Shown here: positions 17,682 to 32,634 of the stretch, piece by piece
Position numbering within the stretch: position 1 is the first letter of the stretch
Layout: every line of letters starts with the position of its first letter
DNA from: Salinadaptatus halalkaliphilus
Lineage (GTDB): Archaea; Halobacteriota; Halobacteria; Halobacteriales; Natrialbaceae
Length of the DNA stretch: 40,990 nucleotides
Direction of reading: 5' to 3'
Assembly (NCBI RefSeq): GCF_006543045.1
Contig: NZ_RBZW01000015.1
Coordinates: forward strand, 1 to 40,990
Notes under the pieces: model-generated
What the model saw: only the letters and a program-made list of their open reading frames with translations
Told to the model about the DNA's origin: nothing
The model's database searches: none
Position numbers and translations under genes: made by a program

Positions 17682-19084
17682 CATCCGTCTTTAGTTAGGC
17701 GCAAAACCGCACGATAGCGGCGGCTTATCGGAGTTACTTTTCGGAAGGAATGAGGAGGCGGAAGATGTGCACTCTAACCCCTCCTCACAGGAAGTGGAAC
17801 GCCATCTCACTAACTTCCTTCCATCTGAAGCGCTCGAAGACCACGCCGATGCCGTCGGCGTGGTCGAGCGTGACCGGAAGCTGCAGATACCGCCGCTCGT
17901 TTGGTCATTTGCGTTCGGCTTCGCCGGCGGCGCAAGCCGAACGCTCGCCAGCTTCAGACGGAGCTACAACTCGACTGCAGACAGGACATTGTCCGCAGGA
18001 GGCTTCTATCAGCGGTTGACGCCGACTCTCACAGAGTACCTCCGCGACCTCGTCGAGTACGGGCTCGACGAGGTCGCTGTTCCTCACACCGTCTCAGAGG
18101 AGTTCAACCGATTCAGAGACGTGATGATCGCAGATGGAACGGTTCTCCGGCTCCATGAGTTGCTTTCTGAGGAGTACGAAGGTCGCCGTGATGAGCAGGC
18201 TGGAGCACGGCTCCACCTGCTCCATAACGTCACTGAGCAGACGATCGACCGGTTCAGCGTCACAGATGAGAAAAGACACGACAGCACGCAGTTCGAGACA
18301 GGATCGTGGCTCGAAGGTCGGCTAGCGATCTTCGATCTGGCCTATTTCAAGTACCGGCGGTTCGCGTTGATCGACGAGAACGACGGCTACTTCGTGAGTC
18401 GACTGAAACGCAGCTCTAACCCGGTTGTAACCGACGAATTTCGGGAATGGCGCGGCCGCGCCATTCCCTTGGAAGGGAAGAAAATCTTCGACGTCGTGGA
18501 CGATCTCTGTCGCAAGTACATCGACGTCGAAGTTGAGATCGAGTTTGACCGGAGAGAGTACGCGGGCACGCAGTCGCGCGATACGAAGCGGTTCCGCGTC
18601 GTCGGCGTCCGCAACGAGGACGCCGACGACTACCACCTGTACATCACGAATCTCTCACGCGAAGAGTTCCTGCCGGAGGATCTAGCGACGATCTACCGGT
18701 GTAGGTGGGAAGTAGAACTACTGTTTCGGGAGCTGAAGACGCAGTACAGGCTGGATGAGTTCGATACGACGAAGAAGCACGTCGTAGAGATTCTGCTGTA
18801 CGCGGCGCTGTTGTCCTTGGTTGTGAGCCGTGAGTTGCTCAGTCTGGTCATCGAACACGCAGATGATGAGCTCGTGTTCCCGCCGGAACGCTGGGCGGCG
18901 ACCTTCCGGTCGCACGCCCAGCTCATTCTCTACCGGTTGAGTGACTACCTCGGGTACTCTCCACCGCCACTGCTTGATCGGCTGATCGCCGACGCGCAGA
19001 AGATCCACAAACAACGGCCGGTTCTCCAAGAACAGCTCGCTACCGCCCTCAAACCGGCTGCTGAGGCCTAACTAAAGACCAATG
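17682..19084 (+). mobile_element. IS4-family insertion sequence, ISH8 type, complete
   Basis: The ends are the inverted repeats CATCCGTCTTTAGTTAGGC (left) and CATTGGTCTTTAGTTAGGC (right, read inward), two mismatches in 19. GACTGACGTG flanks both sides (17672-17681 and 19085-19094) as a 10-bp target duplication, the size I recall for the ISH8 group. The 1403-bp length also fits that group as I remember it. An intact duplication and an intact transposase indicate a fairly recent insertion. Confidence 0.92.
17767..19071 (+). CDS. IS4-family transposase (ISH8 type)
   Basis: This 434-aa DDE transposase appears intact. The IS4 signature is seen as YRCRWEVELLFRELK (Y-R-E-K pattern) near residue 318. 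Upstream acidic residues sit in MIADGTVLRLHEL near 119 and in IFDLAYFKYRRF near 190. It fills nearly the whole element, and the stop overlaps the right inverted repeat. The start is GTG 17767; an ATG two bases earlier is in another frame. Confidence 0.92.
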   Translation: MHSNPSSQEVERHLTNFLPSEALEDHADAVGVVERDRKLQIPPLVWSFAFGFAGGASRTLASFRRSYNSTADRTLSAGGFYQRLTPTLTEYLRDLVEYGLDEVAVPHTVSEEFNRFRDVMIADGTVLRLHELLSEEYEGRRDEQAGARLHLLHNVTEQTIDRFSVTDEKRHDSTQFETGSWLEGRLAIFDLAYFKYRRFALIDENDGYFVSRLKRSSNPVVTDEFREWRGRAIPLEGKKIFDVVDDLCRKYIDVEVEIEFDRREYAGTQSRDTKRFRVVGVRNEDADDYHLYITNLSREEFLPEDLATIYRCRWEVELLFRELKTQYRLDEFDTTKKHVVEILLYAALLSLVVSRELLSLVIEHADDELVFPPERWAATFRSHAQLILYRLSDYLGYSPPPLLDRLIADAQKIHKQRPVLQEQLATALKPAAEA

Positions 19085-23868: not shown

Positions 23869-24783
23869 ATGAACGACATTCAGTCCGCTGCAGCCGACCT
23901 CGCAGAAACGGCCGACCAAATGAACGCAGACGTTTCCGAAGCCCAGATTCGAGACCAAATCGAAGAACTCACCGAGTACCGCATTCCACTCGAGGATGCC
24001 GTCAGCACCGTCCGAAGTCGCCACGAACTCTTCGGCCCGATGGAAATCGACGCGGTCGCTGACATCGACGAGGACGGTGAGTGGTTCAATCTCGAGGTCC
24101 AAGTCGTGGAGCTCTGGGAACCAAATTCGGATGCCATTGCCCAGACCGGGCTCATCGGTGACGAGAGTGGTACGATCAAGTTCACGTGGTTCGACGGCAC
24201 GGACCTGCCAATGCTGGAAGAAGGCGAAAGCTACCAGCTCGAAAGCGTCGTCTCGGACCTCTACCAGGATCGGATGTCGGTGAAGCTGAACAAGGCCACC
24301 GACGTGGTCGAACTCGAAGAGGACATCGAAGTCGCAGACCGCGAAACCGAATTCAACGGCCGAATCGTCGACATTCGGGACAACAGCGGACTCATCAAGC
24401 GCTGCTCCGAGGAGGACTGCAACCGAGTGCTCTCGAACGGCGAGTGCCCAGTCCACGGGCAGGTCGAAGGTGAGTGGGACGTGCGAACAATCGCGGTCGT
24501 CGACGACGGTACCGAGACTCGTGTGGCCACCTTCGACGCCGAAGCCACCGAGGAACTCGTCGGGATGTCTGTCGAAGACGCACGCAACATGCTCGCGAAG
24601 AACCCCGACCCAGACATGATCCAGCACGAAATCGAGACGGAAACGCTCGGCCAGCGTGTCTCGGTGACGGGTCCACAGTACGAAAACGACTCCTCGCCGA
24701 CCATCTTCGTCGATTCGTTCGAAACCGTCAGCGGCGTGACCATGGACGACATCGACAACGTCCTGGTTCGCGCTCGCTCCTAA
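23869..24783 (+). CDS. rpa: replication protein A (single-stranded DNA-binding)
   Basis: This 304-aa haloarchaeal RPA binds single-stranded DNA in replication and repair. Residues about 55-150 form an OB fold (FNLEVQVVELWEPN, GTIKFTWFDGTDLPML, GESYQLESVVSDLYQDRMSVKL). A zinc finger C179-C184-C193-H196 sits in a second domain, as in archaeal RPA large subunits. The N-terminal helices resemble the usual start of these proteins. The RPAP gene follows 194 bases later, the arrangement known for haloarchaeal rpa/rpap pairs. Within this replicon it may be a plasmid-specific copy. Start ATG 23869 has no competitor. Confidence 0.9.
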   Translation: MNDIQSAAADLAETADQMNADVSEAQIRDQIEELTEYRIPLEDAVSTVRSRHELFGPMEIDAVADIDEDGEWFNLEVQVVELWEPNSDAIAQTGLIGDESGTIKFTWFDGTDLPMLEEGESYQLESVVSDLYQDRMSVKLNKATDVVELEEDIEVADRETEFNGRIVDIRDNSGLIKRCSEEDCNRVLSNGECPVHGQVEGEWDVRTIAVVDDGTETRVATFDAEATEELVGMSVEDARNMLAKNPDPDMIQHEIETETLGQRVSVTGPQYENDSSPTIFVDSFETVSGVTMDDIDNVLVRARS

Positions 24784-26424: not shown

Positions 26425-26955
26425 TCAGTCTTGACCGACCTGTCGTCGCTCCTCGAGGACGAGTTCGGCGACCCGTTCGGGTTGTTCGTTCGCAAGGCGG
26501 AGCACCGCGTCGTGGATCTCACGGGTCTCCTCGTCGAGGACCTCTGCCTGAGCCAACTTCGGAACAATTATTGTCCGAATGACGCTTTCGAACTGATCGA
26601 CCGTCTCGCTGCGCGCGTAGAACGGCTTCTGCTGGACGTCACTGTACTCGAACGCCGGACCCGATTCCGCGGGAGACACCGGCTCCAATCCCCCGGACGT
26701 GTCGGCGTTGTTATCGGCCTTGGACTGGCGGGTCGTCGGCGATTTGCTCGAACTCGAGTCCGTTTCGATAGCAGCACTCGAGAGATCGTCGGACGGCGTC
26801 GACGAATCGGCAGTCGTCTCGTTCGCAGCCACTGTTGACTGTTCGATTTCGGTGGTAGTTTCGTCGCCCGACGCGCTCTCGTCCGCATCGGGTGATTCGG
26901 CCGCGGTTGACTCCGGACCATCGTCTTCCTTGAGATCGTCGAACGGATTGCTCAT
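26425..26955 (-). CDS. ParA partner, candidate centromere-binding protein
   Basis: Residues 1-95 of this 176-aa protein are acidic and Ser/Thr-rich, certainly disordered. Residues about 105-176 are an ordered helical domain (KPFYARSETVDQFESVIRTI, LDEETREIHDAVLRLANEQP, AELVLEERR). It is translated directly from the parA message: the start overlaps the parA stop by 4 bases. In plasmid partition loci the second gene encodes the DNA-binding adaptor, so this is the probable ParB analogue. It has no ParB/Srx or CopG signature I can see. Position is the main evidence for function. Confidence 0.72.
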   Translation of the reverse strand: MSNPFDDLKEDDGPESTAAESPDADESASGDETTTEIEQSTVAANETTADSSTPSDDLSSAAIETDSSSSKSPTTRQSKADNNADTSGGLEPVSPAESGPAFEYSDVQQKPFYARSETVDQFESVIRTIIVPKLAQAEVLDEETREIHDAVLRLANEQPERVAELVLEERRQVGQD

Positions 26956-27842
26956 CGCTCTATCCCTCCGGCCGCAACGATCTCGGCGAGTTCCTCGTAG
27001 TAGACGATCTGGTCGTTCTCTGGATCGTAGTCCTGCAACGGCTGGTTGTGCTGCAGCGATCGCGACAGCGCCGACCGGTGCCGGATCCCCGGCTTGGGCG
27101 GCGTAATCTCGCCGGTGTCGATCGCCTCGAACTCCTCACTCGTGATCCGGGCAAAGTCGGGTACGACCTCCTTGAGAGGCTGGCTGGGGTTTACTTCATA
27201 GGTTGCCGTGTTCAGGTTCTCGATCAGTTCTCGGTCTTCGGTCTGTTGATCAATCCGGTCGGAGAGCTTGTTCGGAACAACGGCAAGAACGTCAACATCG
27301 ATGTACTCCCGTGCGGGCTCGATGAGCCGTTCCATCGTTCGCTTGTAGCCGCCGATTGCGCTCGAGCCTGGTTCGATCGGGATCATGACGTTGCCTGTTG
27401 CGACGAGGGCGTTATTATTGAGCATCCCCGGATACGCTGGGCAGTCGAAGACCACATAGTCGTACTCCTCCCCTAATAGGGGATCGACGATTTTCGACTT
27501 GATCCGTGCGGACCCCTGCATCGCCCCCGCGAGATCTTTCTCGACGTCCTCAAGAGTGTCCGACGAAGGGAGCAGGTCGAACCGGTGATCGGTCGGTCGG
27601 ATCAGATCGTGAGGTGTCGCCTCGCCCTCGAGGATGATGTCGCCAAGATTGATATCGCTTTGATAGGCGTCTTCGAACCCAAGGCCGTTAGTCGCGTGCC
27701 CGTTCGGATCGAGGTCAGCAAAGAGGGTCTTGCCGTGCTCGGCGAGCTGGCGCGCAAGGTTCATTGAGGTCGTTGATTTGCCGACGCCACCTTTCAGGAT
27801 GACCACGCTGACGGCACGTGAGCCGGTCGTTGTGTCGTTCAT
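26952..27842 (-). CDS. parA: ParA-family partition ATPase
   Basis: In this 296-aa protein the deviant Walker A motif KGGVGKSTT has the signature Lys at 17 and the catalytic Lys at 22. The Walker A' DLDPNGHATN follows near 43-52, and the Walker B-like YDYVVFDCPAYPG lies near 127-139. These define the ParA/Soj branch of the MinD/ParA ATPases, which moves plasmid copies on the nucleoid. The C-terminal 70 residues are charged and may contact the partner encoded just downstream. Iteron arrays lie on both sides of the operon. Confidence 0.92.
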   Translation of the reverse strand: MNDTTTGSRAVSVVILKGGVGKSTTSMNLARQLAEHGKTLFADLDPNGHATNGLGFEDAYQSDINLGDIILEGEATPHDLIRPTDHRFDLLPSSDTLEDVEKDLAGAMQGSARIKSKIVDPLLGEEYDYVVFDCPAYPGMLNNNALVATGNVMIPIEPGSSAIGGYKRTMERLIEPAREYIDVDVLAVVPNKLSDRIDQQTEDRELIENLNTATYEVNPSQPLKEVVPDFARITSEEFEAIDTGEITPPKPGIRHRSALSRSLQHNQPLQDYDPENDQIVYYEELAEIVAAGGIER

Positions 27843-27961
27843 TGTCGACTGCCCTCCACTTCGAATGGGTCGGAGTAGCTACCTATTGTTTCGATATGCA
27901 TTATCTCAGTTTATATAGAACATATCTAATTCAGGTCTCTTAATTCTACCTACTGTAAACA
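27843..27961 (-). promoter_or_regulatory. parA promoter and CTACCTAYTG boxes
   Basis: CTACCTATTG (27879) and CTACCTACTG (27946) flank an AT-rich stretch with TTTATATAG (27910), the probable TATA region read on the - strand. The boxes are the reverse complement of the CAATAGGTA unit of the neighbouring array, so one protein may bind both. Confidence 0.55.
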
Positions 27962-28058
27962 AGGTAGGCGAAGTAGGTACAATAGCTACAATAGGTAAAG
28001 TAGGCCCAATAGTAGGTGTAGATGCAATAGGTAAGGTAGATGCAATAGGTAAGGTTCG
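27962..28058. repeat. 9-bp tandem repeats, candidate centromere/operator
   Basis: The sequence divides into about ten consecutive 9-mers without a break: AGGTAGGCG, AAGTAGGTA, CAATAGCTA, CAATAGGTA, AAGTAGGCC, CAATAGTAG, GTGTAGATG, CAATAGGTA, AGGTAGATG, CAATAGGTA. The last four form two perfect 18-bp copies (28018-28053). A strictly phased short repeat upstream of a parA promoter recalls parS/operator arrays of ribbon-helix-helix partition systems. Function is inferred. Confidence 0.75.
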
Positions 28059-28149
28059 TGGAAAAGCGATTACAGGTACTGAGTCTAGGATAGCTGGCTT
28101 GAGGTATTCAGCTGTCTTGAATGAAACAAATCGGCTCACACTACAAGTT

Positions 28150-28302
28150 CCCTTATAGAATTTCAAGGCGAATACACCTTCCCGTGAGGAGGGGGTGTTC
28201 CGACGACTGTCGGAACCGAGTGACGAACAGGCGGGTGATGAAGCCGACACGGTGAGCAACAGTCCACCGGTTACACCACGGCTGGATATTCCACGCTGAC
28301 CA
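28150..28302 (+). pseudogene. possible tnpB 3' fragment of an IS200/IS605 element
   Basis: An open frame ends at TGA 28300-28302, with a C-terminal stretch such as EEGVFRRLSEPSDEQ and VTPRLDIPR. Its stop lies about 30 bases before the IS5 element, whose other side carries an IS200/IS605-like right end at 29291. If the IS5 copy is removed, stop and right end are about 100 bases apart, a normal tnpB arrangement. The link to tnpB rests on this geometry rather than on recognised TnpB motifs. Confidence 0.35.
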
Positions 28303-28332
28303 CAATCTTTACATTTCAAAAGAGTATAAGCT

Positions 28333-29258
28333 GCTCTGTTGAAGAGCGGTCTAATCGGCTGATATCACGGGTTAGAAGGACGAAGCCGAGGAAACCGAGC
28401 TTGGAATGGAGATCGATATCCTCGACTTCGTTGAGCAGTGTCGAGACCTAGCTAAACAAGCGTTGGGGAAGCACGCGGGCGAGCCCGCCAGCGGCGGGTT
28501 CGCCCGCTGGATACACGTCGTTTTGCACTGTTTTCGGCTCGAAGAGGGCCATAGCTACCGTGAAACGCCGAACCGGCTGAAGTACATGTCTGAAGTACGT
28601 GACGTACTTGGCCTCGATCGGGACGAGTTGCCGGATTACAGCACGATCTACAAGTCGTTCGATCGGCTGAAAATGTGGGTGTGGCGGGCGTTGCTGCGCA
28701 TTTCAGCGCAGCAACACCCGCACTCTGGGCACGTCGCTCTCGACAGTACGTTCTTCGACCGACGCGCTGCTTCCTCATACTACCGTCAACGATCCGGGAA
28801 TAGCGTTCAGACGCTGAAAGTGACAACACTAACCGATGTGGAGTCTCTTGCAGTTCTTGACGTCCATATCTCTGCCCGGTGGAAACACGATACGAAGACA
28901 GGGCCGCAGGTCGTCCGCCGGAACGCGGACGACCTGCTTTCAGTGGCAGCTTACAAAGCCTTCCACAACTGGCACACCAAATACGAGTTCTACGCTCTCG
29001 GTGTCGAACCACTGATCTTACAGCGCGGATCAAGACCACTCACGACGGGGAACAACGGGCTAATCCGGACAAAAGACTACTCTCAGCGCTGGATGGCCGA
29101 AACTTCGTACTCGACAACGAAGCGCTCGCTCGGCGATGCCGTGCGAGCGCTGGGCTGGTATCGACAGTTCCGTGAAATTGTCCTCATGTTCGCCATCATC
29201 AACATAGAAAAGCTCTGTGAGCCTCTCTAACCATCATTCAGCAGCTATTCAACAGAGC
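28333..29258 (+). mobile_element. IS5-family insertion sequence, probably inactive
   Basis: The termini GCTCTGTTGAAGAGC (28333-28347) and GCTATTCAACAGAGC (29244-29258) are inverted repeats with one mismatch. The 926-bp span and one-gene layout fit haloarchaeal IS5-type elements. ATAA occurs on both outer sides (28326 and 29259), but I cannot fix the target duplication. The transposase carries a damaging-looking change. Confidence 0.8.
28406..29230 (+). CDS. IS5-family transposase with altered catalytic site
   Basis: This 274-aa DDE transposase of haloarchaeal IS5 type is recognised by SGHVALDSTFFDRR (Asp113), the conserved middle HDTKTGPQVVRRNADDLLSV and the C-terminal WMAETSYSTTKRS (Glu232). 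The second catalytic Asp in relatives lies in a VAADK-type motif, from memory. Here position 183 reads VAAYK, codon TAC at 28952, a single-base change from GAC. The following part (GSRPLTTGNN) also looks worn. The protein is probably inactive. Confidence 0.82.
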   Translation: MEIDILDFVEQCRDLAKQALGKHAGEPASGGFARWIHVVLHCFRLEEGHSYRETPNRLKYMSEVRDVLGLDRDELPDYSTIYKSFDRLKMWVWRALLRISAQQHPHSGHVALDSTFFDRRAASSYYRQRSGNSVQTLKVTTLTDVESLAVLDVHISARWKHDTKTGPQVVRRNADDLLSVAAYKAFHNWHTKYEFYALGVEPLILQRGSRPLTTGNNGLIRTKDYSQRWMAETSYSTTKRSLGDAVRALGWYRQFREIVLMFAIINIEKLCEPL

Positions 29259-30575: not shown

Positions 30576-32634
30576 ACGGCTTCCCATGCAAGATTTTGCG
30601 GAGAGTACGAGTGCTGCGGCTCTCGAAGAGCAGCCTATGGGCCGCAGCTGCACCTTCAGCCGCCCTCGCGGAGATATTTTCCGATCGCCCGGACGAACGT
30701 CTTGGCAGTCACGACTGGTGGAGAGCGAATATCACGCCCCATCCCGACTTTCACCAGATAATCAGTGAGTCGCCAGAGATTGTAAAGCAGGGCTGCGAAC
30801 GTGAAGCCAAACAACCGCACACGGTAGTCCTTCGAGGACGTCTTCGGGAGAAACGCCTTTACCGACTTGTATTGGTTTTCGATGTCCCAGCGTCGGCTAT
30901 AGCTGTTGGTGACGTGCCTGATCTCGTTGGGAGTGACGTGGTCGCGGTTGGTCACGAACACGGCGTAATTGCCGTCTGCTTCCTCGTCAGTTGCTGGCAC
31001 GTACAGGAATTCAGCGGTGTGATGGAGTTCGCCATTGATCGCGAACGGAACATCGTGCTTAACAGCGGCGTCAACCCCGTCTTTGCTCTTGATTTTCGCA
31101 ATCGACTCGTAGTCGTTTTCGTACTTCGGTACCGGCGTCATGTACACCAACCCACGGTCGTGGATCGTTGCGTACACGTCGTTGCTGTAGAATCCTCGAT
31201 CAAGGAGCACTTCGTCGAGATCGACGTACTGCTGGGCAATCGCCAGCAATCGGTCGACTACATCTGCCTTCGAACCGGCTGGAGCATCTTCTGGTTCCCA
31301 CGCAGAGCATTCTTTGACTGGTTCAATACCCAAGATGATCGGGACGTCGTTCCCGACGACCGTAATCGTCGCGAACGTATACCCGTGCTTGATTTCACCG
31401 TCGCCTTTGTACCCGCTGACCATCGGCGGATAGTCTGCCTTCGGGATTTGCCTGTCCTTGTCGATCCACGGCCAGACGTGGTAGGGGACGTGTGTGAAGT
31501 CGATAGCTGCTGCCACGTGGCGGTCATCGAACGGATCTTCGTGGCGAATCGTGCTGAGAATGTTCTCGGTTGCAGCGTCGAACGACTCCATCAGCGTCTC
31601 ACGAAATTCCTCGGTGAAAGCGACAACATCCCCGATGCTGTACTCCTGAAATGGTTTTGGAAGCTCCTGACCCGGTGACATCGAGAACTGCTTGATCACT
31701 CGCAGAAACGTCGAATCGTCACAGAAGTCGTTCTTATCGAGGAACCACCCTGCTTCCCCTTCAGAGTGGGCACTTCCCTGTGTCAGGCATGCGTTGGCAA
31801 ACAGATCGAGGATCTGTTCGTCCTCGTAAACTCTGTTGTCGGCTCTGTCGGATCTGAACTCGGCGAAGCCGTGTCGGCGAGCGAGTTCGACGACCTTGCT
31901 GCCATGGTCGTGTACATACTTGCGTGTCGCTGTTGACTGATCTTCGGTCTCTTCGATGTCGTTCTCGCTGGGTTGTAGTGGTAGCAATACGTCGGTGATA
32001 AGGCCCTGATCGTGGGCTTCCAAGAGTATTCCTCGTGATGCGGCCTCAAGCGTGACTTTCGTCTGTTCGCTGAACTGGCTCCAAGCATACGAGATGTTCT
32101 GTTGAGTCGGTGGCTTGGGCATCCCGAAGCCCTTCAATAGTGCTGGGCGATTCGCAAGACGGTCCGCGAGTTCGCTCTGGGAGAAGTCGTGAACCATCTG
32201 GTAGATGTAGAGTCGTGCCATCGACTCGGTGCTAAAGGTTGCTTTATTCTGATTGCGGGTATCCGTGAGCTCAGCAACTGGAATCGAGACCCGGTTGAGA
32301 AGTCGCCAGAGTGTATCAACTTGGTCACAGAGCGTTTTCGCATGATAGACGATTGCTCCTGCCATCGCGGGAGCATCATCATCCAGCGTAGGCGTCAATT
32401 CGTGTGCCACAGTAGTTCAAAATATGAGAACAGACGTATATGAATTATTCAACTAACTGCTTAGAGAATTACTTGTAGACCAGGGAGTTGATTTTTCGTA
32501 TGTAGATTATTATTCGCACACAAATAGGTCATATACTACTCTTTGAAAGACATATATCATTTCGAAAACTAGGATGTGGGTGGACTGGCTAGTTGTTAGC
32601 CCTTGTCTTTCCAGTGTTAGCTATGTGCGGGAAC
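30576..32634 (-). mobile_element. 2.06-kb insertion sequence with 10-bp flanking repeat
   Basis: CTAGCAAACT occurs directly before (30566-30575) and after (32635-32644) this span, as a target-site duplication would. The ends share only an imperfect inverted repeat (GGCTTCCC at the left, GGTTCCC read inward at the right). One transposase gene fills most of it. The exact ends are uncertain by one or two bases. Confidence 0.65.
30656..32410 (-). CDS. 584-aa DDE transposase (IS4-like superfamily)
   Basis: Recognised as a transposase by three acidic stations: AAIDFTHVPYHVW, VLLDRGFYSNDVY and YSRRWDIENQYKSVKAFLPK, the last with a Y-R-E-K-like pattern as in IS4-type enzymes. The N-terminal 150 residues are helical and would bind DNA. 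The C-terminus FGFTFAALLYNLWRLTDYLV is typical of the last helix bundle. The frame is intact, so the element could be active. I do not assign it to a named IS group. Confidence 0.85.
   Translation of the reverse strand: MAHELTPTLDDDAPAMAGAIVYHAKTLCDQVDTLWRLLNRVSIPVAELTDTRNQNKATFSTESMARLYIYQMVHDFSQSELADRLANRPALLKGFGMPKPPTQQNISYAWSQFSEQTKVTLEAASRGILLEAHDQGLITDVLLPLQPSENDIEETEDQSTATRKYVHDHGSKVVELARRHGFAEFRSDRADNRVYEDEQILDLFANACLTQGSAHSEGEAGWFLDKNDFCDDSTFLRVIKQFSMSPGQELPKPFQEYSIGDVVAFTEEFRETLMESFDAATENILSTIRHEDPFDDRHVAAAIDFTHVPYHVWPWIDKDRQIPKADYPPMVSGYKGDGEIKHGYTFATITVVGNDVPIILGIEPVKECSAWEPEDAPAGSKADVVDRLLAIAQQYVDLDEVLLDRGFYSNDVYATIHDRGLVYMTPVPKYENDYESIAKIKSKDGVDAAVKHDVPFAINGELHHTAEFLYVPATDEEADGNYAVFVTNRDHVTPNEIRHVTNSYSRRWDIENQYKSVKAFLPKTSSKDYRVRLFGFTFAALLYNLWRLTDYLVKVGMGRDIRSPPVVTAKTFVRAIGKYLREGG

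Follow-up and report, generated by a model that had tools for sequence, protein, structure and literature searches.

A 9-bp repeat array upstream of parA as a candidate centromere of haloarchaeal plasmids

Introduction

Partition systems of type Ib are among the closest described counterparts of the locus discussed here. They consist of a small ParA devoid of an N-terminal DNA-binding domain and of a small DNA-binding protein encoded directly after it, whose flexible N-terminal tail carries an arginine finger. According to the accessible part of the source, it is established that this type carries repeats of both orientations, direct and inverted, ahead of the operon (PMC5016525). The delta/omega system of pSM19035 operates with a ParA and a small ribbon-helix-helix (RHH) partner, and its contiguous short direct and inverted repeats extend over the par promoters. 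Each parS site counts 7 to 10 repeats, of which at least four contiguous ones are needed for full ParA activation, as stated in the available portion of the report (PMC9499535). A second type Ib pair, ParA/ParB of pCXC100 from Leifsonia, uses a direct-repeat centromere and its ParB is counted among the RHH partners in the accessible text (PMC5016525).

In archaea, the available sections of a segregation review describe SegAB of Sulfolobales and pNOB8 (PMC5120986), and the main text of a later review holds no word beginning with 'halo' (PMC9178275). SegAB associates a ParA-type ATPase with an RHH protein encoded by an overlapping downstream gene; according to the accessible portions of the sources, it is the RHH protein that binds upstream of the operon (PMC5120986; PMC12284271). 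Haloarchaea have many large plasmids and polyploid chromosomes to pass on. No study of a haloarchaeal partition site was found among the matches listed by a search of full-text literature, in which subscription papers lie mostly outside the cover.

Here we analyse a stretch of 40,990 nucleotides of Salinadaptatus halalkaliphilus (contig NZ_RBZW01000015.1, positions 1 to 40,990), hereafter called the window. It contains a parA cassette preceded by an array of 9-bp units, and we offer for such replicons a candidate partition site, its candidate reader and the register in which both would meet. The initial annotation of this DNA knew of no haloarchaeal example of such an array. The absence of reports agrees with our literature search. 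The array is no rarity, however: a 9-bp period upstream of parA is found across haloarchaea, for instance on pNRC100 and on PHS3 of Halobacterium salinarum R1.

Loci and tests

Close relatives were represented by 14 named plasmid loci fetched with their flanks and by 37 haloarchaeal loci of a genome collection (39 minus two from Brachyspira), some of them duplicates. L039 and L040, which repeat L015 and L014, were left unused, L057 was kept over the identical L021 and the record ends L019 and L020 were not counted. For the class-wide survey, 73 hand-picked loci were fetched, and tblastn placed parA in 78 of 78 divergent loci. Periodicity was assessed by a test that ignores the word and retains the best period between 5 and 15, over a region extended to +45 to accommodate arrays hugging the gene. 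A profile of the repeat was trained on the close loci themselves, and the raw TAG grid, scored against dinucleotide shuffles, provides the independent test. Partner ORF starts were picked mechanically, and L138, whose ParA was mis-parsed, stands outside the partner counts.

The parA cassette

The features of the locus are collected in Table 1. In ParA, the KGGVGKST motif occupies residues 17-24 and the AAA_31 domain spans residues 9-172, which leaves no room for a further N-terminal domain, as in the small ParA proteins of type Ib. The partner gene and parA share 4 nt at the parA stop, and this order is general: the next ORF begins inside the end of parA in 67 of the 68 non-redundant fetched loci examined. 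The partner displays an NPFDDL motif near its N-terminus, an acidic linker predicted to be disordered and a conserved C-terminal domain of about 75 aa. An F.DL-type motif is encountered within the first 25 residues of 64 of the 68 partners, and Q..[ILFVM]Y in the C-terminal part of 60.

Table 1. Coordinates of the features of the parA locus in the window
Feature	Position	Strand	Remarks
Partner gene, 176 aa, proposed centromere-binding protein and repressor	26425..26955	-	
parA, Walker-type partition ATPase, 296 aa	26952..27842	-	Pfam AAA_31, E=2.8e-30; plasmid relatives annotated ParA family protein
Operator-like imperfect palindrome CAATAGGTAGCTACT (parA strand, 27888-27874)	27874..27888	-	operator role proposed
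AATTAAG, TATA-like element of a proposed core promoter for parA	27939..27945	-	promoter role proposed
Inverted box CTACCTACTG, CAGTAGGTAG on the parA strand	27946..27955	-	abuts TATA-like AATTAAG
Array, proposed centromere: ten 9-mers centred on TAG, exactly in 9-bp phase	27960..28054	+	basis: letters, shuffles, genome count
Possible decayed continuation of the array	28055..28100	+	weak in-phase sites at 28074 and 28092 (trained profile); weak

On the named plasmids, the partner is called a hypothetical protein wherever it is annotated; its homologue on pNRC100 is WP_010890437.1. Judging from profile comparisons, it has no credible Pfam or NCBIfam family: the protein of the window gave no match at E<=0.1 and its relatives gave only weak or low-complexity ones. 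The ParB N-terminal CTPase/HTH region was matched neither in the window's partner nor in any family recorded for 30 relatives (11 of Pfam, 7 of NCBIfam). No RHH family appeared among the Pfam matches of 49 partner members, one of which touched RepB-RCR_reg (E=0.024), and two of the 49 matched PHROG families of unknown function (best E=0.00021). A search of viral contigs found no relative. Matches to Stm1_N in 6 of the 30 relatives (best E=0.00017) were set aside as low complexity.

For the C-terminal domain, an AlphaFold2 model (mean pLDDT 84.8, pTM 0.65) places helices at residues 16-36, 44-57 and 59-74 and leaves residues 1-15, the location of the conserved Q..[ILF]Y.R, without regular structure. 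The strand of the ribbon-helix-helix fold pairs only in the dimer. An RHH monomer would look like the modelled domain, with an unstructured start followed by helices, and an RHH fold is a likely candidate, but Foldseek returned no match to this model under E=5 in PDB or BFVD, and profile searches of PDB with the partner family gave only weak, unrelated matches (best E=0.012, over the linker; best E=0.65 in another search). The model of the full partner (mean pLDDT 62.2) yielded nothing usable in fold searches.

An array of 9-bp units upstream of parA

TAG recurs at ten consecutive 9-bp steps upstream of parA (27965, 27974, 27983, 27992, 28001, 28010, 28019, 28028, 28037 and 28046). Within the 600 bp preceding the gene, this same-phase run of 10 compares with a mean of 1.9 and a maximum of 4 in 100 dinucleotide shuffles. 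The stretch 27958-28058 matches itself at fractions of 0.52, 0.61, 0.50 and 0.58 at lags of 9, 18, 27 and 36, and at 0.34 or less at the remaining lags up to 39. The initial annotation had described about ten uninterrupted 9-mers of CAATAGGTA type forming a strict tandem repeat. The ten steps and their exact phase hold; the strictness does not, as the array holds three exact copies of CAATAGGTA, besides one inverted copy, and the remaining units are degenerate, with mainly the TAG core in common. As described by Tandem Repeats Finder, the array has an 18-bp unit with 74-80% match. It may continue in decayed form to about 28100.

Elsewhere in the window, CAATAGGTA with one mismatch is found twice, which is not above chance (mean of 2.3 in shuffles). 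In the draft genome (77 contigs, 4.5 Mb), four TAGs at 9-bp spacing have seven occurrences, each of them within the array. The same word read backwards gave 18 matches, so that finding a three-base word four times at this spacing is in itself nothing rare.

The two inverted single boxes that had been noticed alongside the array are present, CTACCTATTG at 27879-27888 and CTACCTACTG next to the TATA-like element, both located between array and parA. The former is one arm of the imperfect palindrome CAATAGGTAGCTACT. The distance from the TATA-adjacent TAG to the operator TAG is exactly 63 bp (7 x 9) in the window and in 26 of 40 close loci under a strict pattern. The operator was scored as a palindrome in 29 of these 40 loci, the less perfect copy of the window being among the 11 that fail the pattern. 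In the 40 non-redundant close loci, counting that of the window, sites of both orientations are concentrated with respect to the operator: a single phase of nine holds 112 of the 216 forward sites and 138 of the 243 inverted ones. Counted modulo 9, the array TAGs are displaced by 4 bases from the operator TAG; array and operator are thus not a single grid. A second TATA-like stretch lies at 27911-27918.

The segment from the TATA-like element to the operator is conserved and may form a leader structure. In L012, L014, L038 and other close loci, GTCCGCTGAAACAG ... GCGGAC, about 30-75 bases before parA, forms by eye a conserved imperfect inverted repeat around the operator palindrome, perhaps the hairpin of a leader or perhaps an additional site for a protein. 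No Rfam family reached its gathering score over 27800-28400.

Conservation in close relatives and across the class

The array, whose absence beside close parA homologues had been named beforehand as evidence against the initial interpretation, is kept there. The TAG grid beats all 100 shuffles in 41 of 44 close loci and ties with the best shuffle in the other three (L014, L054 and L057), which reach p=0.005 in the word-free test. By this test, 9 is the best period at p<=0.05 in 42 of the 44, the exceptions being L051 and L059. The trained profile recognised 1,024 sites in 43 close loci, with same-strand spacings of 9, 18, 27 and 36 bp counted 318, 256, 192 and 150 times, respectively. Among forward-then-inverted pairs of the close loci, 194 of 322 share one phase of nine.

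A ParA related at E<=1e-60 is encoded by 159 of the 391 genomes of the window's class, Halobacteria. Without regard to the word, 9 was the best period in 110 of 122 parA upstream regions (108 with p<=0.05). After removal of 13 near-duplicate or short regions, it remained so in 100 of 109 non-redundant haloarchaeal regions, 99 of them with p<=0.05 (200 shuffles). In 192 control stretches taken from elsewhere in the same loci, 9 was best in 38, 19 of them with p<=0.05 (100 shuffles), and periods 12 (55 stretches) and 15 (46) were commoner, as expected from codon periodicity. Another period was best in L101, L102, L103, L122, L124, L125, L126, L153 and L164, and L150 gave 9 without significance. 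Well-known replicons are included, each with p=0.005 for period 9: pNRC100, Hfx. lucentense pSVX82-3, H. salinarum R1 PHS3, Har. sinaiiensis pHsi139 and Nab. magadii pNMAG02. Two other loci of the window's genome, encoding ParA of a more distant type, have best periods of 15 and 13. The cassette is thus found on haloarchaeal plasmids and probably also on some chromosomes; 13 of the fetched loci lie on contigs of 2.7 to 4.1 Mb, which are probably chromosomes.

The spacing is shared and the word is not. By eye, it reads TAGGTA in the window, CTATTC/GAATAG in pNRC100 and TCTACT in R1 PHS3; several loci use CCTnAGG and others ACATT-like or TGTACA-like words. NC_002608, which we take to be pNRC200, carries two parA loci of different lineages on one replicon (65322-66182 and 131048-131914), whose relatives on pNRC100 and PHS3 have different words.

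Which protein follows the word could be addressed with 84 loci having a significant period and a parsed partner. Over all pairs, the similarity of words increases both with the identity of the partners (r=0.56) and with that of the ParA proteins (r=0.50); as partial correlations, 0.29 is left for the partner and 0.15 for ParA, both above all 500 permutations. Between lineages (ParA identity under 0.55; 2,474 pairs), the word correlates with the identity of the partner C-terminal domain (r=0.33, reached by 0 of 1000 permutations) and not with that of ParA (r=0.02, p=0.315), permutation p-values being too small in such sets of related, non-independent loci. Since the word tracks the partner C-terminal domain and not ParA between lineages, covariation points to the partner as the reader of the repeat. 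Column by column, covariation ranked column 48, in a predicted helix, at the top and also listed columns 9, 12 and 14 of the proposed strand; a residue-level specificity code was dropped, the columns being mixed.

Comparison with described systems

With type Ib, the haloarchaeal cassette shares the small ParA and the small gene directly after parA, whose product would bind DNA. Conserved repeats are present upstream and are a candidate centromere. The N-terminal tail of the partner is predicted to be disordered, but the arginine is another matter: the first 30 residues contain none in the window's partner, and only 21 of 68 partners have one there. The array would work like type Ib sites, but as the tail arginine is missing we do not file it under that type. 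The contact with ParA is probably different for the same reason, and NPFDDL is a candidate for it.

Compared with pSM19035, the units are 9 bp long instead of the 7-bp WATCACW, pairs of which show no excess in the window (11.9 matches expected, 7 observed). The genes overlap here, whereas separate promoters serve those of pSM19035 in the part of the source available (PMC5016525). The geometry differs as well: at 10.5 bp per turn, a 9-bp step amounts arithmetically to about -51 degrees and a 7-bp step to about -120 degrees, which implies an arrangement unlike the heptad one. At -51 degrees per step, seven units would return the sites to the same face after 63 bp. The core repeats of pCXC100 are reportedly also 9 bp long, and its ParB is said to lack a domain recognisable by sequence. 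That system is bacterial, whereas the haloarchaeal array has both orientations and a word that varies between lineages.

SegAB resembles the cassette in its gene order and, if the partner binds the array, would do so in binding upstream of the operon. Its sites differ from a 9-bp array in being 13-bp palindromes, numerous and scattered over the chromosome, as far as the accessible text goes (PMC5120986; PMC12284271). The SegB palindrome TCTAGA-S-TCTAGA, allowing up to three mismatches, has 5 matches in the window against 7.9 expected, none of them within 2 kb of the array.

Among haloarchaeal elements, ORF46/ORF47 of phiCh1 encode a related ParA (38.5% over residues 17-193) and, from a small gene that overlaps its end, a protein with a low-complexity linker. 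Partners of this type align weakly with the partner family by profile (E=0.0028, probability 11%). By eye, their C-terminal stretch resembles an RHH more clearly than does that of the partner family; two of 15 touch RHH_5, at best with E=0.086, which falls short of its cut-off. The locus of phiCh1 itself has no significant period (p=0.204). In the phiCh1-type clade, 9 is the best period at p<=0.02 in 7 of 24 tested loci (L199, L200, L201, L203, L205, L207 and L209), with other words; the periodicity of several of them falls at the gene start or inside it and may be coding.

As upstream repeats are already established for type Ib in the accessible part of the source (PMC5016525), the haloarchaeal array is not a new kind in that respect. 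The combination of a fixed spacing with a lineage-varying word points to an undescribed kind of centromere.

Proposed mechanism and alternative explanations

We consider it probable that the array is a parS-like centromere and at the same time the operator of its ParA cassette, bound by the partner with one dimer per 9 bp, self-repressing and moved with its plasmid by ParA. Partner dimers would dock side by side and cooperatively through their C-terminal domain, probably an RHH, and form a nucleoprotein filament beside the core promoter. With one box at the TATA-like element and a palindrome before the parA start, the partner would repress the operon that encodes it. With its NPFDDL end, the disordered acidic tail would reach nucleoid-bound ParA and stimulate its ATPase, whereupon the plasmid would move. 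Binding, the dimer per unit, repression, ParA stimulation and partition are what we infer; the computation itself shows the array, its period and conservation, the gene order, a preferred phase to the promoter and the covariation of the word with the partner. If at least four contiguous repeats were required for full ParA activation, as the available portion of the pSM19035 report describes (PMC9499535), the length of the array would have a function. A partition array read by the 26425 product in the manner of RHH heptads had been proposed in the initial annotation. As a partition array it is the best-supported reading, the arrays of close loci being kept; the RHH comparison fits the predicted secondary structure only, with no Foldseek match, and the step geometry departs from that of heptads.

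That the array could be an operator and nothing else, through which the partner or another regulator sets parA expression with no part in DNA movement, is suggested by the positions of the boxes, one at the TATA-like element and one shortly before parA begins, with a separation of 63 bp in 26 of 40 close loci. We regard this as unlikely. In the 40 close loci, a profile trained on these same loci finds between 7 and 29 sites per 600 bp (median 18.5, uncorrected for chance), which exceeds an operator's need. In bacteria, the type Ib sites ahead of the operon function in partition, and the proteins that bind them act as repressors as well, according to the accessible part of the source (PMC5016525).

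Short direct repeats are also typical of replication origins, and the 9-mers might be iterons bound by Rep or Orc1/Cdc6: orc1/cdc6 adjoins parA in R1 PHS3 and is annotated in the flank (up to 3 kb) of 4 of the 14 named plasmid loci (L006, L008, L015 and L017). With no annotated orc1/cdc6 in the fetched flank of the other 10 (a count of orc1/cdc6 only, one flank being 0.7 kb and one record unannotated) and a word that tracks the partner between lineages, we judge an origin very improbable. Neutral slippage or coding for a repeat protein would account for a unit of 9 bp, equal to three codons; a minus-strand ORF (27906-28319) reads through the array of the window, and an open frame covers -400 to -100 in 6 of 40 close loci. 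Such an origin of the repeats is scarcely credible, considering that no frame is open over that interval on either strand in 34 of the 40, that TAG is kept on the grid while other bases vary and that the two orientations hold preferred phases.

Building on the centromere reading, we tentatively put forward, at slightly less than even chances, a class-wide machinery in which the centromere is set by the fixed 9-bp register and not by its sequence. The same filament would be assembled everywhere, and the partner face and the word would have drifted together into mutually exclusive codes. Were this true, plasmids sharing a cell would be kept apart, a situation to be compared with the two parA loci of NC_002608, and the code would be predictable from the protein. 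The system occurs in Halobacterium, and the natural variants of the word provide built-in specificity controls. Under the centromere reading, the hypothetical-protein gene found beside the haloarchaeal plasmid parA genes examined receives a candidate role.

Neighbourhood of the cassette

Another contig of the same genome (C54) carries parA and the partner gene a second time, in broken form, at 696-1428; the pieces are 69%, 86% and 61% identical, and this copy is perhaps the remnant of another plasmid. No array was seen by eye adjoining this copy, nor any four-TAG run. The window encodes three DDE transposases (17767-19071, 28406-29230 and 30656-32410), of which the latter two lie to the right of the array. 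As the second of these genes starts about 350 bp past the array, the far flank of the site may be rearranged. Near the partition genes, a replication factor A-like gene is located at 23869-24783 (PRK07217.1, 277.6 bits, below the model cut-off of 353).
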